Shown here piece after piece: positions 46,673 to 60,623 of a stretch of 64,000 nucleotides of DNA. Under the pieces are notes generated by a model. That model did no database searches and was not told the DNA's origin. It was given only the letters and a program-made list of their open reading frames with translations. A program made the translations under genes and the position numbers. This DNA is from Salinirussus salinus (GTDB lineage: Archaea > Halobacteriota > Halobacteria > Halobacteriales > Haloarculaceae), in NCBI RefSeq assembly GCF_009831455.1, contig NZ_WOWO01000003.1, positions 620,001 to 684,000 of the forward strand, in the 5' to 3' direction. Position 1 is the stretch's first letter. Each line of letters opens with the position of its first letter.

Positions 46673-46744
46673 GCCTGGGTAGCTTAGCGGTAAAGCGCGT
46701 CCTTGGTAAGGACGAGAGCCCGGGTTCAAATCCCGGCCTAGGCT
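46673..46744 (+). tRNA. tRNA-Thr (anticodon GGT), integration target
   Basis: A 72-base cloverleaf: acceptor GCCTGGG pairs with CCTAGGC (one G-U), the anticodon stem CGTCC/GGACG encloses TTGGTAA (anticodon GGT), and the T-arm has GGTTCAAATCC. The mobile element starts right behind its 3' end, and its integrase gene is the first in that direction, so the tRNA 3' end is the likely attachment site. Confidence 0.96.
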
Positions 46745-46881
46745 CTCTTTGGCTGTTACGTCCGGTAGTTACCGGGTTCTTCGTCGGTGAAACAATGTCC
46801 ACCGCGCAAGAACGAGTACCCGGTACCAAATCTGGTACCCCGACGCCGTCACGCGTTTTCGAAGAAAAGACAGGCATACTA

Positions 46882-46940: not shown

Positions 46941-48065
46941 ATGACGTACAGCAGTGAAAACAAGGTTGACGGGATCGTCCTCGTCACCGAAGACGCACAA
47001 GAATACCTGAACCCAAGACAAGAAGTCACATACCGCGAACACCGCCGCAACCTGGCAGAATGGATGCTCGGCCTCGGCAAAAACCCGGAGAAAGCCGAAG
47101 GCTACAGCCACTCTACCGCCAAAAACCGGATGAACCGTTTAGACCTCTTCTACCGGTTCGTCTGGGACAGGAAAGGCCGGTTCGTCCAGGAACTATCCAC
47201 GGACGACGCCGACGACTGGATGCGCCACCTCGCACGCCAGGAAATGAAAGAATCCACGAAGAACCACTACCAGAAAGCCGCGAAAACCCTGTTCAAGTGG
47301 AAAAGAGAAGCCCGCAACAAAAACGTCGAATGGCAACCCGAGATCAAGTACAGCGACCCCTCTACAACCTACACGCCTCGGGACTACCTAACCAAAGACG
47401 ACCGCCGGAAAATGCGGGAAGCCGCAATGAGCTACGGCTCGGTACCCCACTACAACTCCGTAACCCCGAGTGAACGCGATAGATGGAAGACGTATCTCTC
47501 TCAGCGACTTCAGAAGCCGAAGGAGGAAATCACGATGAAGGACTGGGAGCGGGCAAACAGCTTCAAGTACACCTCTATGATCCACGTCGCCTTGGATGCG
47601 GGCCTACGTCCTATCGAGATTAAGCGAAGTAATGTTCACTGGGTCGACACCGAAAACGGCGTACTGAGAATACCCAGAGAAGAAAGCAGTAAGAACCGGG
47701 AAAACTGGATAGTCGCACTCAAAGAAGAAACCAGTCAAATCCTCAAACGCTGGCTCGACGAACGCGAAACACGCGAGAAGTACGACGGCCGAGACGCACT
47801 CTGGCTCACAATGTACGAGAACAGGTACGACAAAGACTCTTTCCGGGACGTCTTCCGCAAGATCGCGTCCGAAGCTGGCCTCGACCTCGAAAACCGAGAC
47901 CTAACACCGTACAGCATTCGACACAGTACTGCGACCTACGTAGCCGAAGAGGAAGGACTTGCAGTCGCCGCCCAACAATGCCGTCACAAGTCGAAGCGGA
48001 CGACGGAGAAGTACGAGCACAGTAGTACGACCCGGCAGCAGGACGCGGTCAACAACATAGACTAA
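46941..48065 (+). CDS. Tyrosine recombinase (integrase)
   Basis: A 374-residue site-specific recombinase. The N-terminal core-binding domain spans about residues 25-150. In the catalytic domain, LDAGLRPIEIKRS supplies the first arginine, TPYSIRHSTATY the second arginine (its preceding residue is Tyr rather than the usual His), QCRHKSKRTTEKY the box III histidine and the presumed nucleophilic tyrosine. The gene lies directly downstream of tRNA-Thr. ATG at 46941 follows the palindromic promoter. Confidence 0.92.
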   Translation: MTYSSENKVDGIVLVTEDAQEYLNPRQEVTYREHRRNLAEWMLGLGKNPEKAEGYSHSTAKNRMNRLDLFYRFVWDRKGRFVQELSTDDADDWMRHLARQEMKESTKNHYQKAAKTLFKWKREARNKNVEWQPEIKYSDPSTTYTPRDYLTKDDRRKMREAAMSYGSVPHYNSVTPSERDRWKTYLSQRLQKPKEEITMKDWERANSFKYTSMIHVALDAGLRPIEIKRSNVHWVDTENGVLRIPREESSKNRENWIVALKEETSQILKRWLDERETREKYDGRDALWLTMYENRYDKDSFRDVFRKIASEAGLDLENRDLTPYSIRHSTATYVAEEEGLAVAAQQCRHKSKRTTEKYEHSSTTRQQDAVNNID

Positions 48066-50057: not shown

Positions 50058-50303
50058 GTGGCTTCGTTGACGATCAAGCTACCCGATGACCAGAAAAGCG
50101 AGATAGAGGCAGTAGCTGAGAGGAAAAACTACAACAGCGTCTCAGAGTACGTCCGAGAAGCACTTCGGGATAAAGTCGAGGAAGACCTTGTGCTGCGGCC
50201 TGAAGTAGCGGAGAAGCTTCGGAAACGTGTTAAAGAGTACGAGGAAGGCGAATCTGAAGGCTACACCTTGGAAGAGCTGGATGAAGAACTCGGGTTGTCC
50301 TGA
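50058..50303 (+). CDS. Ribbon-helix-helix antitoxin
   Basis: An 81-residue CopG/RHH protein: ASLTIKLPDDQKSEIEAVAE gives the beta strand and first helix, NYNSVSEYVREALRDKV the rest of the fold. The acidic C-terminus would bind the toxin. GTG at 50058. Its stop is immediately followed by the toxin ATG. It likely represses its own operon. Confidence 0.87.
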   Translation: MASLTIKLPDDQKSEIEAVAERKNYNSVSEYVREALRDKVEEDLVLRPEVAEKLRKRVKEYEEGESEGYTLEELDEELGLS

Positions 50304-50597
50304 ATGAAGCTTGATATCCGGGAAGGAGCCGTTGAAGACCTGAAACAGTTCGATAAGGAAATCCAGAAGCTGGTCAGAGACAGGATCGAGGAATTGCGAA
50401 GTAGTCCCTTAGGTAAAAATACGTCGCTGCTTAACAAGCAAGGCCTGGAGATCTTCCGACTGAAGCTGAAAACCGATGAATTAGACCATAGAGTGTTCTT
50501 CGACCTCAACGGTGACACAGTCGTAGTACTTGGAGTAGAGCACCGGGACCAAGCCTACACACCTGAATCAATCAAGAAGATCAAGTCCCGGAGATAA
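50304..50597 (+). CDS. RelE/ParE-family toxin
   Basis: A 97-residue protein with the RelE fold: KQFDKEIQKLVRDRIEEL, GLEIFRLKLKTDELDHRVFF and VVVLGVEHRDQAY with the typical C-terminal H/Y. It begins directly after the antitoxin stop. RelE acts as a ribosome-dependent mRNA nuclease and ParE on gyrase; which applies is not visible. Such pairs stabilise mobile elements. Confidence 0.87.
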   Translation: MKLDIREGAVEDLKQFDKEIQKLVRDRIEELRSSPLGKNTSLLNKQGLEIFRLKLKTDELDHRVFFDLNGDTVVVLGVEHRDQAYTPESIKKIKSRR

Positions 50598-50866: not shown

Positions 50867-51571
50867 ATGCGTCTCGGGGTTATTTCGGATGTTCACGCGA
50901 ATCTTCCTGCGTTGGAGGCGGTGTTAGAGGATATGCCGTGTGTTGATGTTTTGATCTGCCTGGGCGACGTCATCGGGTACAACCCGTTTCCTTCCGGTTG
51001 TGTTGACCTGGTTCGGAGGGAGTGTGATCTTGTTTTGCAGGGGAATCACGACCGGGAACTCAGGGATCCGGAGCAGTACAGAGGCAACAAAGGTGCTTAC
51101 GCCGGTTTGAAACTGGCCAGGCAAGAACTCGGTAGCCAAGAGATCGAGTACCTCCAAAGCCTTCCTGAGAAACGAGAGGTAAGGGGTACAGGACTCTACG
51201 CCGTCCACAGCCATCCCAAGGCTACGGACAGGTACGTGATGCCGGATCAGTTCGAGAACTTGAAACAGTACCTCGACGGGTACACCGGTTTGCTTCTCGG
51301 CCACACTCACGTCCAGCACGTCGAACACTTCGACGAAGGCATAATCTTGAATCCTGGAAGTGTCGGTCAACCGCGAGACGATGATCCAAGAGCAGCTTAC
51401 GCAGTAGTCGATACCGAATCCTTAGACGTGGAACTGAGACGTGTAGGATACGACCTCTGGACTGTTATCGACGAAATACACGACAAAGACCTTCCAGACA
51501 GGACGGCTCAAAGACTACTCCCTGATTCTGTGGGGAACACCAGAGAGGAGAACCCCCATTGTAGGCGCTGA
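50867..51571 (+). CDS. Calcineurin-like metallophosphoesterase (YfcE/MJ0936 type)
   Basis: A 234-residue metal-dependent phosphodiesterase. Motifs in order: MRLGVISDVHAN (D-x-H), ICLGDVIGYN (GD), LQGNHDREL (GNHD), HSHPKATDRY and LLGHTHVQH (GHTH). The family includes enzymes acting on 2',3'- or 3',5'-phosphodiesters. It lies nine bases from the convergent CARF-like gene. A role in turning off a nucleotide signal is an attractive guess only. Confidence 0.88.
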   Translation: MRLGVISDVHANLPALEAVLEDMPCVDVLICLGDVIGYNPFPSGCVDLVRRECDLVLQGNHDRELRDPEQYRGNKGAYAGLKLARQELGSQEIEYLQSLPEKREVRGTGLYAVHSHPKATDRYVMPDQFENLKQYLDGYTGLLLGHTHVQHVEHFDEGIILNPGSVGQPRDDDPRAAYAVVDTESLDVELRRVGYDLWTVIDEIHDKDLPDRTAQRLLPDSVGNTREENPHCRR

Positions 51572-51579
51572 TAGAGAAA

Positions 51580-52488
51580 CTACTGGGTTAGTTTGCCGGG
51601 ATTGTCTTTTGGATGGGTGTTGACCCAGAGTTCTCCAACAGTATCTAAAGTGGGTTTGTGCCTGTTCTTCTCTTTCTCTATCTTTACGAATCCCTTGTCT
51701 TCTAACTGGTTGACGTTGTACTGCACCTTGCTTTTGAACGAGTCCGGGTCTGTATTATCATTGAGATGTTCCGCCAGTTGCTTAGCTAGATCTGAGATGG
51801 AATCAGCGGTTCCAATATCGTCAAGGAAATGAAGGAGTGTTTTTTCGAAGTCGTGGAGGTCCGAGGAGGGTATAGTGGGGAATTCGACGTGAAGTCCTCC
51901 GTTCATTTTAGCTGCGCCTTTAGTCACGCCGCTGGTGTCTATCTGATCGACTGTCTCTGATATCTTATTGTACCGTTCTTCGAACTCGTCTCCTTTGTCC
52001 CGGTGCTTTTCGAGGAATTCTTTTTCTTCTCGGAACTGTTCGATCATTTCAGTGACGAGGTAGTCCTCGGGTGAGACGTAGTACGTGTGTATCTGGTTTC
52101 TGTAGTCGTTGTTTTCGACGAGTAGGCTGTTTGCTGCTGTGGCGAAGGCAAATGCGACTGTACGGGGCATAGAGGAGATGTTGACCCATACCTCGTTTCC
52201 TTTCTTGACTTCTTTCTCGATCCTGTCGTATGCGTAGGGGTAGAGGTTCTCGAAGTCGAAAATATTCTCGACGACCTCGGTTTCAACGTTTATACCGAGA
52301 ACAGTATCGAATGTTCTCTCCAGTTCGGCAAGCATATTTTCTGCAAGTCTACGTGCTTCTTCGTCGCTTTCTTCTCTTGATGAATGTAGGAGGTATACTT
52401 TGTCGGCATCGAGTTTTCCTTGTGAAATCGGCTGAAAGAGGCGTTCGTAGTCGAACCCCACCGGGATGATATGGACTTTCTCAGTCAT
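51580..52488 (-). CDS. CARF-like/winged-helix regulator (HFX_2341 type, DUF6293)
   Basis: A 302-residue protein. The N-terminal Rossmann-like domain (MTEKVHIIPVGFDYERLFQP, VYLLHS, VWVNISSMPRTVAFAFATAA) resembles the HFX_2341 CARF-type ligand-binding domain described for haloarchaeal regulators. A central coiled segment follows, then a C-terminal winged helix (ISDLAKQLAEHLNDN, VQYNVNQLEDKGFVKIEKE). CARF domains bind cyclic or linear oligonucleotides. It is divergent from the nucleotidyltransferase cluster with 173 bases between. The ATG at 52486-52488 follows GAGGAG; upstream codons are promoter. No Cas gene is present. Confidence 0.75.
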   Translation of the reverse strand: MTEKVHIIPVGFDYERLFQPISQGKLDADKVYLLHSSREESDEEARRLAENMLAELERTFDTVLGINVETEVVENIFDFENLYPYAYDRIEKEVKKGNEVWVNISSMPRTVAFAFATAANSLLVENNDYRNQIHTYYVSPEDYLVTEMIEQFREEKEFLEKHRDKGDEFEERYNKISETVDQIDTSGVTKGAAKMNGGLHVEFPTIPSSDLHDFEKTLLHFLDDIGTADSISDLAKQLAEHLNDNTDPDSFKSKVQYNVNQLEDKGFVKIEKEKNRHKPTLDTVGELWVNTHPKDNPGKLTQ

Positions 52489-52661
52489 TTTCCGTCTCCT
52501 CTGTATTGTTAGTACTAGTGGTGCTTGTAAAAGGGAAGGGATACTCTGTGAGTTCGTAGAAATTATTTTGTACGATTTCCCATTTTGAGCAACAGCGGAT
52601 TTATAACTCTTGGGTGCATACGAAACGATGTACCGAACCAAAATTTCAGGTGGAACTCAAT
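52489..52661. promoter_or_regulatory. Divergent promoter region of the signalling cluster
   Basis: 173 bases between the CARF-like gene and the TGT-like gene. It contains TAGTACTA, an 8-base perfect palindrome at 52510-52517, close to the CARF-like start and a candidate operator, and TTATAACT at about 52601, a TATA-like element for the plus-strand genes. Confidence 0.4.
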
Positions 52662-53480
52662 ATGGATCCCAGAGAAAAACACCAGGGCTCCCAGCAATCG
52701 AAGCCTTCAGGCGTCATACCTCGAACCGAGCGTCAGACCAGACACGAGAAGTTCTACAACGGCTTCTCCGGCGTAGACACAGTGATGCTGCCTATCGACC
52801 ACGCAGAGAGGCTTCTCCGCCAAGGTCTGACAGCATCCAGCTATACCGATAAGGCAGTCATCACCACTACAACGATACCAGATGAGGATTTGAAAGACTT
52901 CGGCTGGGAGAAAGAGCGAGATATTGTGGAAGCGTTCCAGCCAACGTATCATATTCCTACGGACTACTGGGTATACGGCGATATGGACCCTGAAGACCGG
53001 GTTCAAAATATTGAGCTATTGATGGAAGGTACCGAGTGGATGTATGAGCAGATGAAAGGGGTTTCTACTGAGATTATCCCGCTGGTGAAGGGTTACTCAC
53101 CGCAGGAGCGAGCGATTTGCTACAGGACCCTGGACAAGCTCGGCACCGATTATGTGGCATTCTACGGGTCGCAGTACTTCGGCGGGAAAAACGGTGGGAT
53201 AAACGCTCTAAATGAGGATGTAAGAGATATAGTCTCTGAGTATAGTCCTTCGCGCGTCCTTCTCATAGGCTGTCAGTCTGAAAACTATATGGAGAGACTG
53301 CCTCCCGAAGTTGAGGCGGTTGCAGGCCAGCGATGGATCCGCAAATCGAAGCTACGGGATGTCTCAATCCCGAAAGCACGGGTAAAATACCTTGAGTGGA
53401 AACAGGAGGTAACTGCTGGCCTCGGCTCAGGTCAGACCACGCTGGGCTCCTTCGAGACTTCTACAGAGGTGACTGCCTGA
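52662..53480 (+). CDS. TGT-like TIM-barrel protein (possible Cap10/DpdA relative)
   Basis: A 272-residue protein. VDTVMLPIDHAERLL, then STEIIPLVKGYSPQERAICY, LGTDYVAFYGSQYFGG and SRVLLIGCQSENYME follow the strand-by-strand plan of tRNA-guanine transglycosylases (a P-V-x-G-type strand, then Y-V-A-x-G, then L-x-G). It is shorter than real TGT (about 370-490 aa) and I see no TGT zinc-binding Cys/His set. TGT homologues occur in type IV CBASS (Cap10) and in DNA 7-deazaguanine modification (DpdA). ATG at 52662 follows AGGTGG; a GTG at 52614 is possible. The next gene begins two bases after its stop. Confidence 0.6.
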   Translation: MDPREKHQGSQQSKPSGVIPRTERQTRHEKFYNGFSGVDTVMLPIDHAERLLRQGLTASSYTDKAVITTTTIPDEDLKDFGWEKERDIVEAFQPTYHIPTDYWVYGDMDPEDRVQNIELLMEGTEWMYEQMKGVSTEIIPLVKGYSPQERAICYRTLDKLGTDYVAFYGSQYFGGKNGGINALNEDVRDIVSEYSPSRVLLIGCQSENYMERLPPEVEAVAGQRWIRKSKLRDVSIPKARVKYLEWKQEVTAGLGSGQTTLGSFETSTEVTA

Positions 53481-53482
53481 TT

Positions 53483-54580
53483 ATGGGCAGCAATCGCTCA
53501 ACGCCCACGCCGAGACGTGATGGAGGCGGAGGTGCCGCTGCTGCTTCTGGAGGACGGAGGCCTGGGAGTCAGCGACAGATCGGCTCCAGCAGCGATAGTG
53601 ACTCTCCTCGTGAAGCTGAAGAAGAGATCGAGGAGTCGCATCAGGAGCACGCCGAGAGTGCACAGATCACCGACCGACAGGGCCGTAGGATGGAGGAACG
53701 GAAAGAGACCGTTGTCGGTCATCTGGATGATGACGGGTTCCATATAAAGGAAAGCAGTATCTACGGTTCTGTTCTTCAGGGCACCGCTACCCGCCCTCTC
53801 GATAACGAAACAGATGTTGATATTCTCGTAGTTCTGGACGAAGAAGAGCACGGTGAGTGGGCTAAAGACGGCAAAGGGACACGTAACGCTCTCCGTGCGG
53901 TAAAACGCACCCTTGAGAAGAAGTATCCGAATCAGAACGTCTACATCGACAGGAGTGTTGTCGCTGTTGAGTTCAGCGATTTCAAGGTAGAAGTGACTCC
54001 GGCGTTTGAGTACTCTGCTGCTCAGAACCCGGAGGAGCCTGGTGATCCGGCTACTGTTGGAGGAATCGAGCTGCCTTTCCATCCTGGAAGTCGAGACAAC
54101 CCGAATCAAGGATATGTGATTCCCGACACCTATGGAGAGGAGTCTTGGAGAGGGACAAATCCCCGTCGCTTCCAGTCGATGTACGAGGCGGTGGATCAGA
54201 ATAATAACGGGAAGCTTCAGCAGGTTGCAGTTACGGCGAAGAAATGGAACGAGAAGAACGGGAAACCGGTTTCATCGTTCCATATGGTGAATATGGCGTA
54301 TCAGTACTTCAGGGAAGATGCCCCCGCTAATGCTTCTACTACTGAGCATATGCACCGGTTCTTCAGACGCCTTCCGGATTATATGCAGAGTGAGACGCGG
54401 GAACCGGTATATCAGGAACGGCTGGACAAAGGGATGAGCAGCGAGGAGAAGAGAAGAGCTGCTAAAAAAGCGTATAATGCTCAGGAGAAGCTGAGACAGG
54501 CGAAGCAGCTTCAGGAGCAGGGAAAAACCGAGGAAGCCAAAGAAAAATACCGTGAGGTCTACGGAGACGAGTTCAACTGA
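53483..54580 (+). CDS. CD-NTase-like nucleotidyltransferase with low-complexity N-terminus
   Basis: A 365-residue protein. The nucleotidyltransferase core reads IYGSVLQGTATRPL (G95-S96), DVDILVVL (D111, D113) and FKVEVTPAF (E170 as third acidic residue), the GS-D-x-D-D/E pattern of CD-NTases. An all-helical C-terminal domain follows. The first 60 residues are Gly/Ala/Ser/Arg-rich then acidic and look disordered. The C-terminal 30 residues are a charged helix (EKLRQAKQLQEQGKTEEAKE). ATG at 53483 lies two bases after the TGT-like stop. The product would be a cyclic oligonucleotide, a linear nucleotide, or tRNA modification; the first is favoured by the neighbours. Confidence 0.75.
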   Translation: MGSNRSTPTPRRDGGGGAAAASGGRRPGSQRQIGSSSDSDSPREAEEEIEESHQEHAESAQITDRQGRRMEERKETVVGHLDDDGFHIKESSIYGSVLQGTATRPLDNETDVDILVVLDEEEHGEWAKDGKGTRNALRAVKRTLEKKYPNQNVYIDRSVVAVEFSDFKVEVTPAFEYSAAQNPEEPGDPATVGGIELPFHPGSRDNPNQGYVIPDTYGEESWRGTNPRRFQSMYEAVDQNNNGKLQQVAVTAKKWNEKNGKPVSSFHMVNMAYQYFREDAPANASTTEHMHRFFRRLPDYMQSETREPVYQERLDKGMSSEEKRRAAKKAYNAQEKLRQAKQLQEQGKTEEAKEKYREVYGDEFN

Positions 54581-54590
54581 GGTAGTTTGT

Positions 54591-55178
54591 ATGACGGGAA
54601 ATGATCTGGACGTTGACTTTCGGAACCGGATATACAATCGGGCTCTAGAAGAGCAAAACAGCAATCTGTGGAATTTTAAACGATACTACACCGCAGCGAG
54701 TTTCTGGTCTGTAGTTGACGTGGGAACAGACGCCTATATGGCGCTCGCTGGTGGTGTAATAACCTATGGACTGGCTTGGAGGAAAGTCCCAGTCTGGGTT
54801 ATGGCACTACTCTCGTTGTCCGTCGCAGCCATCTCCATTTTCAAAGGGAACAGAAAACCAGGCAAGCGAGCTGAGAAAATACACACCCTGGGGAGAAATT
54901 ACCAAGAGCTCTACGATGAGATCCAGGACTTCATAGAGTTAGATCTTAAGGACGGGGATAGAGAGAAGGAGTGGATTCGTGATCGTTTTGATGAGCTGGC
55001 TTCAGAACGCCACGATTTGAAAGCTGAGGCCACGCTAAGCGGTTTTTGGTACCGCTGGTTGAAATGGCGGCGCGGCGACGAGATCTATGAAGAGGCGGCT
55101 ACGACTGAGGAAGAACGAGAGCTGCTTGATCCAGAAGGATTCGAAAAAGAACAATCAGAGGAGGAAGGGGAAGAATGA
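54591..55178 (+). CDS. SLATT-domain two-membrane-segment protein (putative effector)
   Basis: A 195-residue protein. Residues 40-62 and 67-85 are the two hydrophobic helices (YMALAGGVITYGLAW and VWVMALLSLSVAAISIF), followed by a long amphipathic helical region (NYQELYDEIQDFIELDL). This is the SLATT plan: two membrane helices with a cytoplasmic coiled part, predicted pore-forming effectors that open on a nucleotide signal and damage the cell membrane. It starts 10 bases after the first nucleotidyltransferase and its stop overlaps the second one (ATGA). Confidence 0.75.
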   Translation: MTGNDLDVDFRNRIYNRALEEQNSNLWNFKRYYTAASFWSVVDVGTDAYMALAGGVITYGLAWRKVPVWVMALLSLSVAAISIFKGNRKPGKRAEKIHTLGRNYQELYDEIQDFIELDLKDGDREKEWIRDRFDELASERHDLKAEATLSGFWYRWLKWRRGDEIYEEAATTEEERELLDPEGFEKEQSEEEGEE

Positions 55179-56083
55179 GTATACCTGACAGCCAGCTAGA
55201 AACGTGGAGTAACCCAGGGGCAGATGACTCGGCCACGAAGACCTACAACCGAGTCAAGAACGTAATGGAGGACGACAACTCAATACCAAACCAGAAGGAC
55301 AAGAACTTCGAAGTTTACCTTCAAGGCTCGTATCGGAACTCCACGAACATCTACGCTGATAGTGACGTCGACTTAGTCGTTCAGCTGAATTCCTCGTTCA
55401 GACGCAATCTTTCCCGTCTTAATTCCACTCAGAAGTCCAGATACAAGGACTCGTTCTCCAGTGCAAGCTATGGATTGAGCGACTTTCATCAGGATGTAGT
55501 AGATACTCTTAGAGACCATTACGGTAGAAGCTCGGTCAGTGTAGAAGACCGAGCATTGGTTTTGGATAGTGATTCGCTACCTCTGCCCGCGGATATTGTT
55601 GTTTGCCAGCAGTATCGACGTTACAACCGCTTCCAGAGTTATTCTGACCAAGATTACGATGAGGGTATCCGTTTCAAAGATCAATCAACTGGAGAAGAGA
55701 TAATCAGCTATCCCAAAATCCATTACCAGAATGGAGCTGATAAGAACCAATCTGTCCACAGCAGATATCGGGAAACCATCCGAATAATCAAGAATGCCCG
55801 GTCATACCTGGTTGAGAAAGACGAAATAGAAGAAGGACTGGCTCCGTCCTATTGTATCGAGTGTTTGTTATATAATGTTCCTTCAGACGAGTATACCAAT
55901 GATTTACAGGAACGATACAGGAACGTCGTTGACTGGCTCGTGGAAGCAAGAATAGACGAGTTTGATTGCCAGAACGAGATTCAGGCTTTGTTCGGGAGCA
56001 AATCTACTCAGTGGTCTACTTCTGACGCGGATGAGTTCATTCGAAAGCTCGTGGATCTCTGGAATAACTGGTATGACTACTGA
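55175..56083 (+). CDS. CD-NTase-like nucleotidyltransferase (SLATT partner)
   Basis: A 302-residue protein. VYLQGSYRNSTNIYADSDVD provides G51-S52, D64 and D66, and LPADIVVCQQYRRY the third aspartate D140. This GSYxN-T-N-I plus PADIVVC type is a widespread CD-NTase form that often pairs with SLATT proteins. The C-terminal helical region includes RYRETIRIIKNARSYLV. It differs clearly from the previous nucleotidyltransferase, so the locus has two enzymes of different clades. The four-base ATGA overlap with the SLATT gene indicates a coupled pair. Confidence 0.82.
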   Translation: MSIPDSQLETWSNPGADDSATKTYNRVKNVMEDDNSIPNQKDKNFEVYLQGSYRNSTNIYADSDVDLVVQLNSSFRRNLSRLNSTQKSRYKDSFSSASYGLSDFHQDVVDTLRDHYGRSSVSVEDRALVLDSDSLPLPADIVVCQQYRRYNRFQSYSDQDYDEGIRFKDQSTGEEIISYPKIHYQNGADKNQSVHSRYRETIRIIKNARSYLVEKDEIEEGLAPSYCIECLLYNVPSDEYTNDLQERYRNVVDWLVEARIDEFDCQNEIQALFGSKSTQWSTSDADEFIRKLVDLWNNWYDY

Positions 56084-57338: not shown

Positions 57339-57746
57339 TCACAGTTCCCGGTGTACCTGTTCTCGGAACGTATTGAATTTCTGTTCTAATTCTTCTATTT
57401 GGGTTTCAAGCCTGTGGGTTTTCTCGACGAGTTCCCGGTGGCTCAGGTTCTCGTATTCGTCCAGTGGTTCTGTGTCGGCTTGTTCGAGGTGTTGTTCCCC
57501 TTTGTCTGTGAGTTCTGCCTGTTTTGGGTGTTGGAAGACCCGTTTCTGTCCTTCTATTACTCGCTCCACCGTTCCGTCTGGTTTTGATACGGTGAGTAGT
57601 CCGTGTTGTTCGAGTTTTTCGAAGGCGTAGGTGACGTGGTGGTTTTCGAGTGTGGTGGCGGAGGTGATTTTTTGGACGTCGTCGTTGCCACTGTCGATCT
57701 GTTGGAGTATGATTTGTTCTTTGTCTCTGAGTTCTGGTTCAGTCAT
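57339..57746 (-). CDS. Winged-helix regulator of the transfer operon
   Basis: A 135-residue protein. The N-terminal winged helix (DKEQIILQQIDSGNDDVQKI, TLENHHVTYAFEKLEQHGLL) is followed by a C-terminal coiled coil. ATG at 57744-57746 overlaps the VirD4-like gene stop by eight bases; it is the last gene of the operon. It may control operon expression. The C-terminus is duplicated at 56473. Confidence 0.75.
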   Translation of the reverse strand: MTEPELRDKEQIILQQIDSGNDDVQKITSATTLENHHVTYAFEKLEQHGLLTVSKPDGTVERVIEGQKRVFQHPKQAELTDKGEQHLEQADTEPLDEYENLSHRELVEKTHRLETQIEELEQKFNTFREQVHREL

Positions 57747-59655
57747 CACTCGTTGTTAGGACGCATTGGGTTTCGAGTGCGGAGCAGAATCCGGAGTCGT
57801 CTCTGTAGAGGCAGAAGTTTTCGAGGTCGTCGCGTTGGTTGTGATCCAGTTCTGGGCATTCGTCCTCGATTTCTTCGTGTTCCTCTAACGTGTCTCCAGC
57901 TAACTCTAGGACGCGGTATTCGGCTTGTTTTAGTTCGTCTATCTGGGTGATGGGTTCGCCGTCTACGGTGTAGTAGTTGTACGTCCCGTTTTCGTCTTCG
58001 TGCTCTGAGCCGCGGCGGTTGACGGGGTCGGAGACGATGTTTTCCAGTTTCGCGGCTTTCCCTTCCTCGACGACGTAGAAGATTTCCCGGTCTTCTTCGA
58101 CGCCACGTCTCAGGTTTTTCAGGACTTTTCCTGGCTTCGACAAGGTGGAGTTCTCTGCTTCGAGGTGTGCGACTTCCTGGTTGGGTAGGTGGACGTGGCC
58201 GTCCGGTTTCTCTTCTTCTTGGCCCTGGTACAGCAGGTTGACGTGGAATCCTCTTTCTTCTAGGTCTTGTTTGGCTGCTGCGAGGAGTTCTTGGTGTGTT
58301 TCCCCGCCGGCGTTGGCCTGGTTTCCGAGGCTTTGCGTAAGCTGGACCTGGGTTTTGTTGCTGGTTCGGGCGGCGGCTTTCTCCTGTTTGATTTTGTCGA
58401 CGTCGCTGTAGTCGGCTTCCCAGGGCGGGTACGTGTTGAAGAGCACTGCGTTTCTCTGATTCTCTTCTGAGGGTTTCTGGACTGCGGCGCGGTACTTGCC
58501 CAATGAGGTTAACGTGGTTTTGTCGACGCCTTGAAGCATTCCTGCGATTTGGGACGTGTTTTCGCTGCCGCTGGGGTTGAACACGATTTTGCTGCGGCAG
58601 TTGTTGGAGACGGCCCGCTTCATCTCCGGTGCGAGTTGTTGGAGGTACTGTGTTGCGAGCCAGCAACCTAAACGGTATTCTCGTGCTTCGCTGAGGATCT
58701 TGGTGAAGTTGCTGCCTTCGCCGGCGAAGTTCTGGAGTTCGTCGACGTACAGGTAGAAGGGCTGTCTTTCTTCGAATGGTTGGGTGATGCGGCTTTGTGC
58801 TGCTGCCCAGATCTTTGTGATTACAATCGAGCCGACGAGTTCTGAGACTGTGCCGCCGACCTCTCCTTTCTGGATGTCGACGAGCACGATTTTTCCGTTG
58901 TTGACTGCTTTTCTGAAGTCTAATCCGCTTTCTTCTGCGCCGATGACTCTCCGGATGGTCGGGTTCATCACGAAGTCGTTCAATCGCCGCTGCAACGGCT
59001 CCATCTCATACGAAGTCATATCCTCCTTGACTCGGACGAGTTGTTCTCGGATGACGGAGTCCTGGGTCTGGTCTATGAGTTCGCTCAGGGGTTCGTCTTG
59101 GATGACGCAGCGGAAGACGTCGACCAAGGTCTTCGATTCGTTTTGTTTGATGTTGAGGTCGAGGTGTGCTCTGAGTAGTGTTTCGAGGACTCGTCCGAAC
59201 TGGTCTCCCCAGTTCTCGCTTTGGCGTTTGAAGAGGTCGATGAGGTCGGAGACGATGATTTCTTTCTGGTTCTCCCTCTGTGCTGTGTTCATTTCGTCCG
59301 TGATCTGGGGTTCGAGGACGTTGATCGGGGTGACGGGTTCACTGGCGGGGTTGATGTAGACTACGTCGTCCAGCCGGTTTTCAGGTAGTTTAGCGATGAC
59401 CTCGTCGATCATACTGCCTTTCGGGTTGACTATGCAGAGGCCGTGGTCTTTCTCGGCGTCCTGCAGTGCGACGTGGGTCAGCAACTGGGATTTGCCGTAG
59501 CCGGTCGGCCCGATGTTCAGGACGTGGGTCATCCTGTAGTCGTCGCTGAGGCCGACGTTTTCCTCGACTCCTAACTGGCTTTCGCGGAAGCCGAGGTAGG
59601 TCGTGTTCAGGTGTTCGGTGCTTTCGATCAGGGTACGGGTTTCTTCCGGGTTCAT
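57739..59655 (-). CDS. VirD4/TraD-like DNA-transfer ATPase
   Basis: A 638-residue ATPase. Walker A is GPTGYGKSQLL (about residue 49), and Walker B LYVDELQNF. AREYRLGCWLATQYLQQL is the conserved sensor region of coupling proteins. N-terminal membrane helices are absent, unlike VirD4. The C-terminus has four cysteines (CPEL, FCLYRDDSGFC, TQC) that could bind zinc. It would bring DNA to the secretion channel. ATG at 59653-59655 overlaps the previous stop by four bases. Confidence 0.85.
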   Translation of the reverse strand: MNPEETRTLIESTEHLNTTYLGFRESQLGVEENVGLSDDYRMTHVLNIGPTGYGKSQLLTHVALQDAEKDHGLCIVNPKGSMIDEVIAKLPENRLDDVVYINPASEPVTPINVLEPQITDEMNTAQRENQKEIIVSDLIDLFKRQSENWGDQFGRVLETLLRAHLDLNIKQNESKTLVDVFRCVIQDEPLSELIDQTQDSVIREQLVRVKEDMTSYEMEPLQRRLNDFVMNPTIRRVIGAEESGLDFRKAVNNGKIVLVDIQKGEVGGTVSELVGSIVITKIWAAAQSRITQPFEERQPFYLYVDELQNFAGEGSNFTKILSEAREYRLGCWLATQYLQQLAPEMKRAVSNNCRSKIVFNPSGSENTSQIAGMLQGVDKTTLTSLGKYRAAVQKPSEENQRNAVLFNTYPPWEADYSDVDKIKQEKAAARTSNKTQVQLTQSLGNQANAGGETHQELLAAAKQDLEERGFHVNLLYQGQEEEKPDGHVHLPNQEVAHLEAENSTLSKPGKVLKNLRRGVEEDREIFYVVEEGKAAKLENIVSDPVNRRGSEHEDENGTYNYYTVDGEPITQIDELKQAEYRVLELAGDTLEEHEEIEDECPELDHNQRDDLENFCLYRDDSGFCSALETQCVLTTSDD

Positions 59656-60623
59656 GGTTCTGCGTTGACGATGTTTTCCTGCTCGATACTGGGCAGCGAC
59701 AGCAAGGCTGCAAGCTCTGGAACCGAGGTCTGGAACCTGTGGCTCCACGAGCCGAAGCGGCGGTGAGCAACTGTTTCCGCGAAGTTGAGGATCTGGTTTT
59801 CTCGTAGGGATTTGACGGTGACTGTGTCGAGGTACTGGCCGGTATCCGGGTTTTCGAAGGTGTTGTAGCCGCCGCTGAGTTCCTTCACCCGGCTCTGCGT
59901 GTAGTCGTCGGCTCCGATCACCAGGAAACGGATGCTGGTGTAGAACCGGTTGGTACCGGCCTTCTCCTCTATCGCATCGGCCTGACGTTTCTCACGAGGT
60001 GTAGGACTCCGGCTTCCCCACAGCTTCTCCTTCTCTTTTCGGAGGTAGCCGATTCTCTGGTACGCCCGTTTCCGCCAGTACCACCGCTTCAGTGGTTTTC
60101 CTATGACGGGTTGGAACAGGATTTGCACGACGAACTTGGTGTCCCGCATCGCGTGCCTGTGCAAGGCCGAGACAACGGAATTGATTGGAGGCTTGTCGAA
60201 GTCGTGTTTCAGCGGGTACCAGTCATTTCTTCCCGTGGTCAGGATTCCGCCGCCGACCGTGTCCTCCGAGGTAACCGGGATTCCTTCGACACCGGTATTG
60301 AACCGGATTCCTGGCACCTGGTTCGTAAGGTGTGTCCTGAGTTTCCTTCCCAGGCGGATCGTCGGTACGGAGAACTGGATTTTGATTTTGTCAGGGTGGC
60401 TTCTCCTGATCTCGAATGCGGCGACCGGCGACGTATTCACAAATCCCAGCCACTTTGACTGGAGCTCTGTAACCGCCTTCACCAGGTTCACCGGAACCGG
60501 CGGAACATCTCCGTTCCTCGGCGTCCTGACCTCGATGCTGTGGCACCTTTGCACCGGGTTCCGAAGTCTTTCAGCTTCCTCTTCGGTTGGCGTGGCTGTG
60601 TAGTATCGGAGTCGGTCGATCAT
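59652..60623 (-). CDS. Transfer-operon protein of unknown function
   Basis: A 323-residue mixed alpha/beta protein without recognised motifs. KPLKRWYWRKRAYQRIGYLRK is a basic stretch. No membrane helix is obvious. It lies between the VirB4-like and VirD4-like genes with four-base overlaps on both sides, so it very likely works in the same machine, perhaps as an N-terminal half of a split ATPase. Confidence 0.65.
   Translation of the reverse strand: MIDRLRYYTATPTEEEAERLRNPVQRCHSIEVRTPRNGDVPPVPVNLVKAVTELQSKWLGFVNTSPVAAFEIRRSHPDKIKIQFSVPTIRLGRKLRTHLTNQVPGIRFNTGVEGIPVTSEDTVGGGILTTGRNDWYPLKHDFDKPPINSVVSALHRHAMRDTKFVVQILFQPVIGKPLKRWYWRKRAYQRIGYLRKEKEKLWGSRSPTPREKRQADAIEEKAGTNRFYTSIRFLVIGADDYTQSRVKELSGGYNTFENPDTGQYLDTVTVKSLRENQILNFAETVAHRRFGSWSHRFQTSVPELAALLSLPSIEQENIVNAEP

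Follow-up and report, generated by a model that had tools for sequence, protein, structure and literature searches.

A CARF and winged-helix protein divergent from TGT cassettes in haloarchaea, a candidate dedicated regulator

Described systems and their relation to the locus

CARF proteins have chiefly been described as sensors of messengers made by CRISPR systems, and a classification of them was given by Makarova et al. 2020. In the literature searched, which lay apart from that classification, a CARF regulator dedicated to TGT cassettes was not found described. HFX_2341 (crr) of Haloferax mediterranei, covered by NF051475 and PF19810, has the same domain order and pocket floor as the CARF protein analysed here. 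It is a vertically inherited core gene for a global, mostly repressing regulator (PMC11434293), whereas the CARF protein sits with TGT cassettes and here on mobile DNA. Csa3 is alike in its CARF domain and MarR-like winged helix-turn-helix (wHTH), in GF(D/N) of motif 1 and (D/N)x(S/T)xxx(R/K) of motif 2, and in a palindrome upstream of BRE/TATA. The present protein differs from it by Met107 in place of Gly96, by the lack of CRISPR/Cas10, by other neighbours and by a longer helical linker. CapW, the WYL regulator of CBASS (PMC9122588), is comparable as a ligand domain joined to a DNA-binding domain for local control of a CBASS operon, but it is a repressor with WYL in place of CARF and an unrelated fold. 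Type IV CBASS with Cap9/Cap10 (PMC11996544; PMC13279940) has in common the TGT-like Cap10 and a CD-NTase with an N-terminal MG tail. Here a QueC-like Cap9 was found neither in the operon nor clearly in the genome, and a SLATT effector, a second cyclase of CdnE type and the CARF regulator are added. The CARF-wHTH protein and the CBASS operon are known parts, standing here in a conserved combination for which no description was found in the papers searched.

The regulator and its divergent operon

The window, i.e. the whole stretch of 64,000 nucleotides of Salinirussus salinus DNA analysed, codes for the regulator on the minus strand at 51580-52488 (ATG at 52488, product of 302 aa). It is composed of a CARF domain (residues 1-142), a helical linker and a winged-helix domain (204-296), and represents an accessory HFX_2341-type paralogue. 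The sequence-only reading had named it an HFX_2341-type CARF-like/wHTH protein, and this was borne out by PF19810 (HFX_2341_N; 1.9e-25, 90 bits, cut-off 30), by the near full-length match to PADLOC CARF3 model PDLC01846 (1.2e-106, residues 4-292) and by the matches of the predicted fold. DUF7776 and DUF6293_C were also matched weakly, and the HFX_2341 equivalog NF051475 gave 252 bits, under its cut-off of 500. Searching PDB sequences with the protein or its profile gave no CARF match, so a fold comparison was needed. An AlphaFold2 (AF2) model was built from 46 relatives (mean pLDDT 89.8). The N-terminal part, which had been suspected to be CARF-like, matched CARF folds at Z 14-15 when residues 1-142 were compared, with Can2 8bao at Z 14.7 (rmsd 1.8 over 113 residues), Can1 6sce at Z 14.4 and Csa3 6wxq at Z 13.8; Csm6 was matched as well. 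The modelled domain has the Rossmann-like fold of the CARF superfamily. Residues 204-296 of the model resemble the winged helix of RosR 6qfd (Z 12.2) and MarR (Z 11.5), and provide the C-terminal MarR-like wHTH also found in Csa3. The CRISPR association of Csa3 was not found, as neither Cas1 nor the Cas10 palm was matched in the whole Salinirussus salinus genome, in agreement with the earlier statement that no cas gene is present. A YfcE-like metallophosphoesterase gene (50867-51571) is situated tail to tail with the regulator gene, and a nucleotide signal could be its substrate.

The immediate neighbour of the regulator gene is a divergent TGT gene (52662-53480, plus strand), whose 272-aa TGT-like (Cap10-like) product matches PADLOC TGT at 2.6e-88 and 294 bits. 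Its AF2 model (pLDDT 90.7) has the fold of the TGT of Zymomonas mobilis with a TM of about 0.65, while the TGT profile gave no meaningful sequence match in PDB and no direct match to the Cap10 structure. Directly after the TGT stop begins the first CD-NTase (53483-54580, plus strand), a CdnD-like SMODS protein (NF041117, 221 bits, cut-off 200; 6p82) with the N-terminus MGSNRSTPTPRRDGGGG, which starts with MGSN and forms a long Gly/Ser-rich tail. It is followed by a SLATT / 2TM effector (54591-55178, plus strand; probable start at the ATG of MTGNDL) with a PADLOC 2TM effector match of 9.6e-9 and a match to NF033632 (2.1e-13, 50 bits) slightly under the cut-off of 55. The second CD-NTase (55175-56083, plus strand), overlapping the SLATT gene by 4 bases, is CdnE-like (NF053871 DS2_2; 7.9e-73 to 6e0k). 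The two candidate cyclases described earlier as divergent from the regulator were recovered in these CdnD-like and CdnE-like genes; the TGT gene lying between had gone unmentioned. A second cyclase of CdnE type was not seen among the other CARF-linked TGT operons examined.

TGT-CdnD-SLATT-CdnE is a type IV-like CBASS operon. It possesses a CD-NTase (53483-54580), a Cap10 of the TGT family according to PADLOC and fold, and an N-terminal glycine acceptor on the CD-NTase in its MGSN start. In type IV CBASS the protein described as the target of nucleobase conjugation carries MGGS, and QatB carries MGTS (PMC13279940; PMC11996544). No QueC-family Cap9 was found in the operon, and the genome holds one partial PF06508 match (26.9 bits, 58 residues). 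Among 42 genomes that carry a TGT cassette or an accessory CARF copy, seven gave no clear QueC (PF06508), Salinirussus salinus being one of these seven, so the published Cap9-type conjugation would have no obvious local enzyme in these genomes.

The CARF/CBASS locus sits on an integrative element of about 48 kb at tRNA-Thr (46673-46745, plus strand). The last 43 bp of this tRNA gene (46702-46744) recur exactly 48.3 kb downstream and represent the att sites. The element has a tyrosine integrase (46941-48065, plus strand) and a TraG/TrwB-like coupling ATPase, a conjugation gene (57739-59655, minus strand, the searched part of the 57739-59748 ORF), and is probably conjugative. It also carries a RadC-like gene and a RelB-like antitoxin gene accompanied by a partner of the size of a toxin (50058-50597).

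Pairing with TGT across haloarchaeal genomes

Nearly all haloarchaeal genomes carry one core HFX_2341, and 352 of the 391 genomes analysed matched the CARF query at E 1e-40. The CARF protein shares about 40% identity with the core HFX_2341 of its own genome. A peptide-pattern scan of genome contigs gave only 3 relatives. An accessory set of 22 copies, each scoring above every core copy, was chosen by CARF score alone; their neighbourhoods were fetched and genes were called. The TGT gene was adjacent and divergent to CARF in 21 of them, the exception being G367:C1, while none of eight core copies analysed with 1.5-kb flanks had a TGT. Two further accessory copies, which were found through TGT, are likewise paired with it, and another one lies on a short contig where no TGT was called. 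In a tree of 53 sequences all 28 core copies fell on one side of a branch of length 1.89 with an SH-aLRT of 100, the tree having been made by a quick method and showing long branches for the accessory copies. By these sequence comparisons, the CARF protein is assigned to an accessory group separate from the chromosomal HFX_2341 regulator. Cas10 was not matched in any of the 24 genomes with accessory copies. A CARF regulator that goes together with TGT/Cap10 cassettes where Cas10 is lacking is a case of this sensor in use outside CRISPR.

Behind TGT in the 21 score-selected loci, CdnD-SLATT was found in seven, a small protein in 11 and a DsbA/Thioredoxin_5-like protein in three. Searches with two cyclase profiles made for this analysis detected no cyclase in 14 of these 21 CARF/TGT neighbourhoods, which argues that CARF travels with TGT and not with a nucleotide synthase. 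The small protein ends in a YGDIV...SHLRD domain, for which three members searched gave no Pfam or PADLOC match. The small-protein and DsbA-like partners start with Gly-containing tails (MGNRV..., MPRKGGG..., MGDGTT...), the N-terminal tail being Gly-rich in the DsbA-like ones. At TGT loci that lack CARF two more partners were found, a ThsB-like TIR protein and CdnE, each with an MG tail. Taken together, the Gly-tailed partners behind TGT (Cap10-like) genes are of at least five kinds, namely CdnD, CdnE, ThsB-like TIR, DsbA/thioredoxin-like and the unnamed YGDIV...SHLRD domain. This diversity suggests that nucleobase tagging extends beyond CBASS and points to partners of Cap10-like proteins other than CD-NTases.

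Many TGT-CdnD-SLATT operons do without a CARF regulator, and the system thus does not depend on it. In two such CdnD loci a divergent TrmB regulator, confirmed by Pfam, takes the place of CARF, and several more look alike by eye; the presence of TrmB regulators in this position supports a regulatory role for CARF. Three CARF-TGT loci from different genera and two families are near-identical, which indicates recent transfer. On the Salinigranum rubrum plasmid NZ_CP026312, the place of one of the 21 pairs, a CARF-TGT-CdnD-SLATT locus runs across the origin of the record, and its TGT and CdnD are broken into pieces by frameshifts or stops.

Ligand pocket, candidate operator and TGT leader

Motif 1 (PVGFD..RL..P) and motif 2 (NISSMPR) of the pocket are conserved in both the accessory and the core group and are (nearly) invariant in 46 sequences. 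The CARF domain motif (D/N)x(S/T)xxx(R/K) (PMC8844856), placed after beta4 in the superfamily, is represented by N103-I-S-S-M-P-R109, of which N103, M107, P108 and R109 are invariant in all 46 sequences. The CARF protein is likely to have a ligand. In Csa3, motif 2 holds Gly96, and G96A abolished cA4 binding (PMC8844856). In the motif register of that work this position is occupied by Met107, a methionine in 46 of 46 sequences, and binding of cA4 in the Csa3 pose is therefore unlikely. The cA4 of type III CRISPR had been considered as CARF ligand and was dropped since no Cas10 was matched. The backbone-binding residues of the pocket floor are common to the CARF protein and the near-universal core HFX_2341, which points to a ligand not made by the TGT operon only. 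The beta2-alpha2 loop, which in Csa3 contacts adenine and reads bases, hardly varies within the core group but does vary among the accessory copies, so a ligand common to both groups is not assured. For the core protein c-di-AMP was suggested as ligand. The product of the local cyclases is one candidate among several, and a cell-wide nucleotide is no less likely than this product, because the CARF-TGT pairing occurs without a cyclase and the pocket floor is common with the core regulator.

The divergent promoter region (52489-52661) was aligned with that of Halonotius terrestris L139, whose CARF is 78% identical. It contains a candidate operator at 52554-52575, a 22-bp inverted repeat TCGTAGAAA-TTAT-TTTGTACGA which reads TCGTAGAAATTATTTTGTACGA and pairs 8 of 9 positions of its arms. 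At the same place L139 has a perfect 9-bp inverted repeat (9/9). Arms of at least 8/9 were found in 14% of shuffles, which is not significant for the present repeat, and 9/9 arms as in L139 in 1.2%, so the operator is supported by its conserved place and letters and not by the repeat alone. When up to 3 mismatches were allowed, the genome held no second site like the palindrome. At more distant loci only its right half is visible, and inverted repeats upstream of TGT did not reach significance when each locus was taken singly. The palindrome lies between two divergent putative TATA boxes and upstream of both, namely the TATA region of the CARF promoter at 52525-52533 (minus strand, TTGTAAAAG as read on the plus strand) and TTTATAA of the TGT operon at 52600-52606 (plus strand). 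The palindrome of Csa3a is situated directly upstream of BRE/TATA (PMC8699464), and the similar position of the candidate operator, upstream of both TATA boxes, leans towards activation.

The predicted fold, the domain order, the pocket motifs, the divergent TGT pairing and the split from the core clade are results of computation. In the reading which we prefer, with a probability of roughly 0.7, CARF is a transcription regulator that works as a dimer, responds to a nucleotide and is dedicated to the TGT (Cap10-like) defence cassette encoded divergently from it. A small ligand of nucleotide type would be bound by the CARF domains across the axis of the dimer, and the bound ligand would move the winged helices as in Csa3. 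The most likely binding site would be the 22-bp palindrome at 52554-52575. Its position speaks for activation of TGT-CdnD-SLATT-CdnE in dependence on the ligand, along with autoregulation. Repression, the main effect described for the core HFX_2341 (PMC11434293), would be the alternative sign. The sequence-only reading had proposed that the protein reads the nucleotide of the adjacent cyclases and controls their operon. The second half of this proposal is supported, as a dedicated regulator is likely from the CARF fold, pocket motifs, wHTH, absence of detected CRISPR and conserved divergent arrangement, while the first half finds no support in that form, with 14 of 21 loci lacking a cyclase. 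Since CARF is almost always placed back-to-back with TGT, with or without signal-making enzymes, control of the TGT cassette is its probable role, more so than a simple readout of neighbouring cyclases.

Sensing of a cyclic nucleotide from the operon's own CdnD or CdnE, with transcriptional feedback on CBASS, appears unlikely, although solved structures show CARF domains binding cyclic oligonucleotides (PMC8844856, PMC8699464), the model has the CARF fold and pocket, and the divergent operon includes a CD-NTase here and at eight other loci. The cyclase-free majority of score-selected loci, the pocket floor common with the near-universal core HFX_2341 and the change of Csa3 Gly96 to Met argue against it. 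Somewhat less probable still is that CARF senses a nucleobase or nucleotide of the TGT chemistry, such as a 7-deazaguanine derivative. TGT is the constant partner while three kinds of protein follow it in CARF-bearing loci, and Cap10 of type IV CBASS binds a 7-amido-7-deazaguanine-modified N-terminus (PMC11996544). However, the pockets of CARF domains have a two-fold symmetry that suits cyclic oligonucleotides, no TGT lies beside the core regulator, which has the same pocket floor, and without a clear QueC in the genome a de novo supply of 7-deazaguanine is doubtful.

A chance neighbourhood, in which the element took up a mobile copy of a global regulator without specific link to the operon, would fit the location on an integrative element and the global role of core HFX_2341 (PMC11434293). 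It is highly improbable and already contradicted by the comparative data, as 21 of 22 accessory copies from several families and many genera lie beside TGT in the same divergent orientation, and the tree sets these copies apart from the core clade. The preferred reading of a dedicated regulator may be extended, tentatively and with considerable doubt, to CARF regulators as dedicated switches, under the control of a nucleotide, for a broad family of TGT (Cap10-like) cassettes in haloarchaea, whose TGT serves Gly-tailed partners well beyond CBASS (CdnD, CdnE, ThsB-like TIR, DsbA-like and the unnamed domain), where a small-molecule signal would set the expression of a nucleobase-to-protein tagging module. 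The CARF-TGT pairs offer a testable system for the ligand of orphan haloarchaeal CARF regulators, a question left by the HFX_2341 paper (PMC11434293).

The 5' end of TGT contains an imperfect hairpin GGATCCC-AGAGAAAAACACCA-GGGCTCC (52664-52691, plus strand), and similar hairpins were observed at the 5' end or leader of TGT in twelve other loci. The stem is variable and covarying with 5-7 bp, and the loop is near CANNGAAAACCA. The leaders of 11 CARF-linked TGT genes have a common hairpin with a loop of 14-17 nt, and in six of its seven stem pairs both bases are changed. Rfam matched neither the TGT leader nor any part of the operon. A covariance model made from the 11 CARF-linked hairpins gave no convincing hairpin in other TGT loci because the stem letters differ between groups. 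A looser search for stem and GAAA-type loop matched the sense strand of 21 of 51 TGT 5' regions, two of these matches appearing spurious. The opposite strand gave 3, and shuffled sequences 4.5 on average. As only this looser pattern links the groups, a wider hairpin family is a lead and not a result. In the CBASS group the hairpin extends over the TGT start codons, and conservation of the peptide could account for part of it there; the hairpin may act as DNA or as RNA. The hairpin occurs with and without CARF and hence belongs to TGT and not to the regulator.
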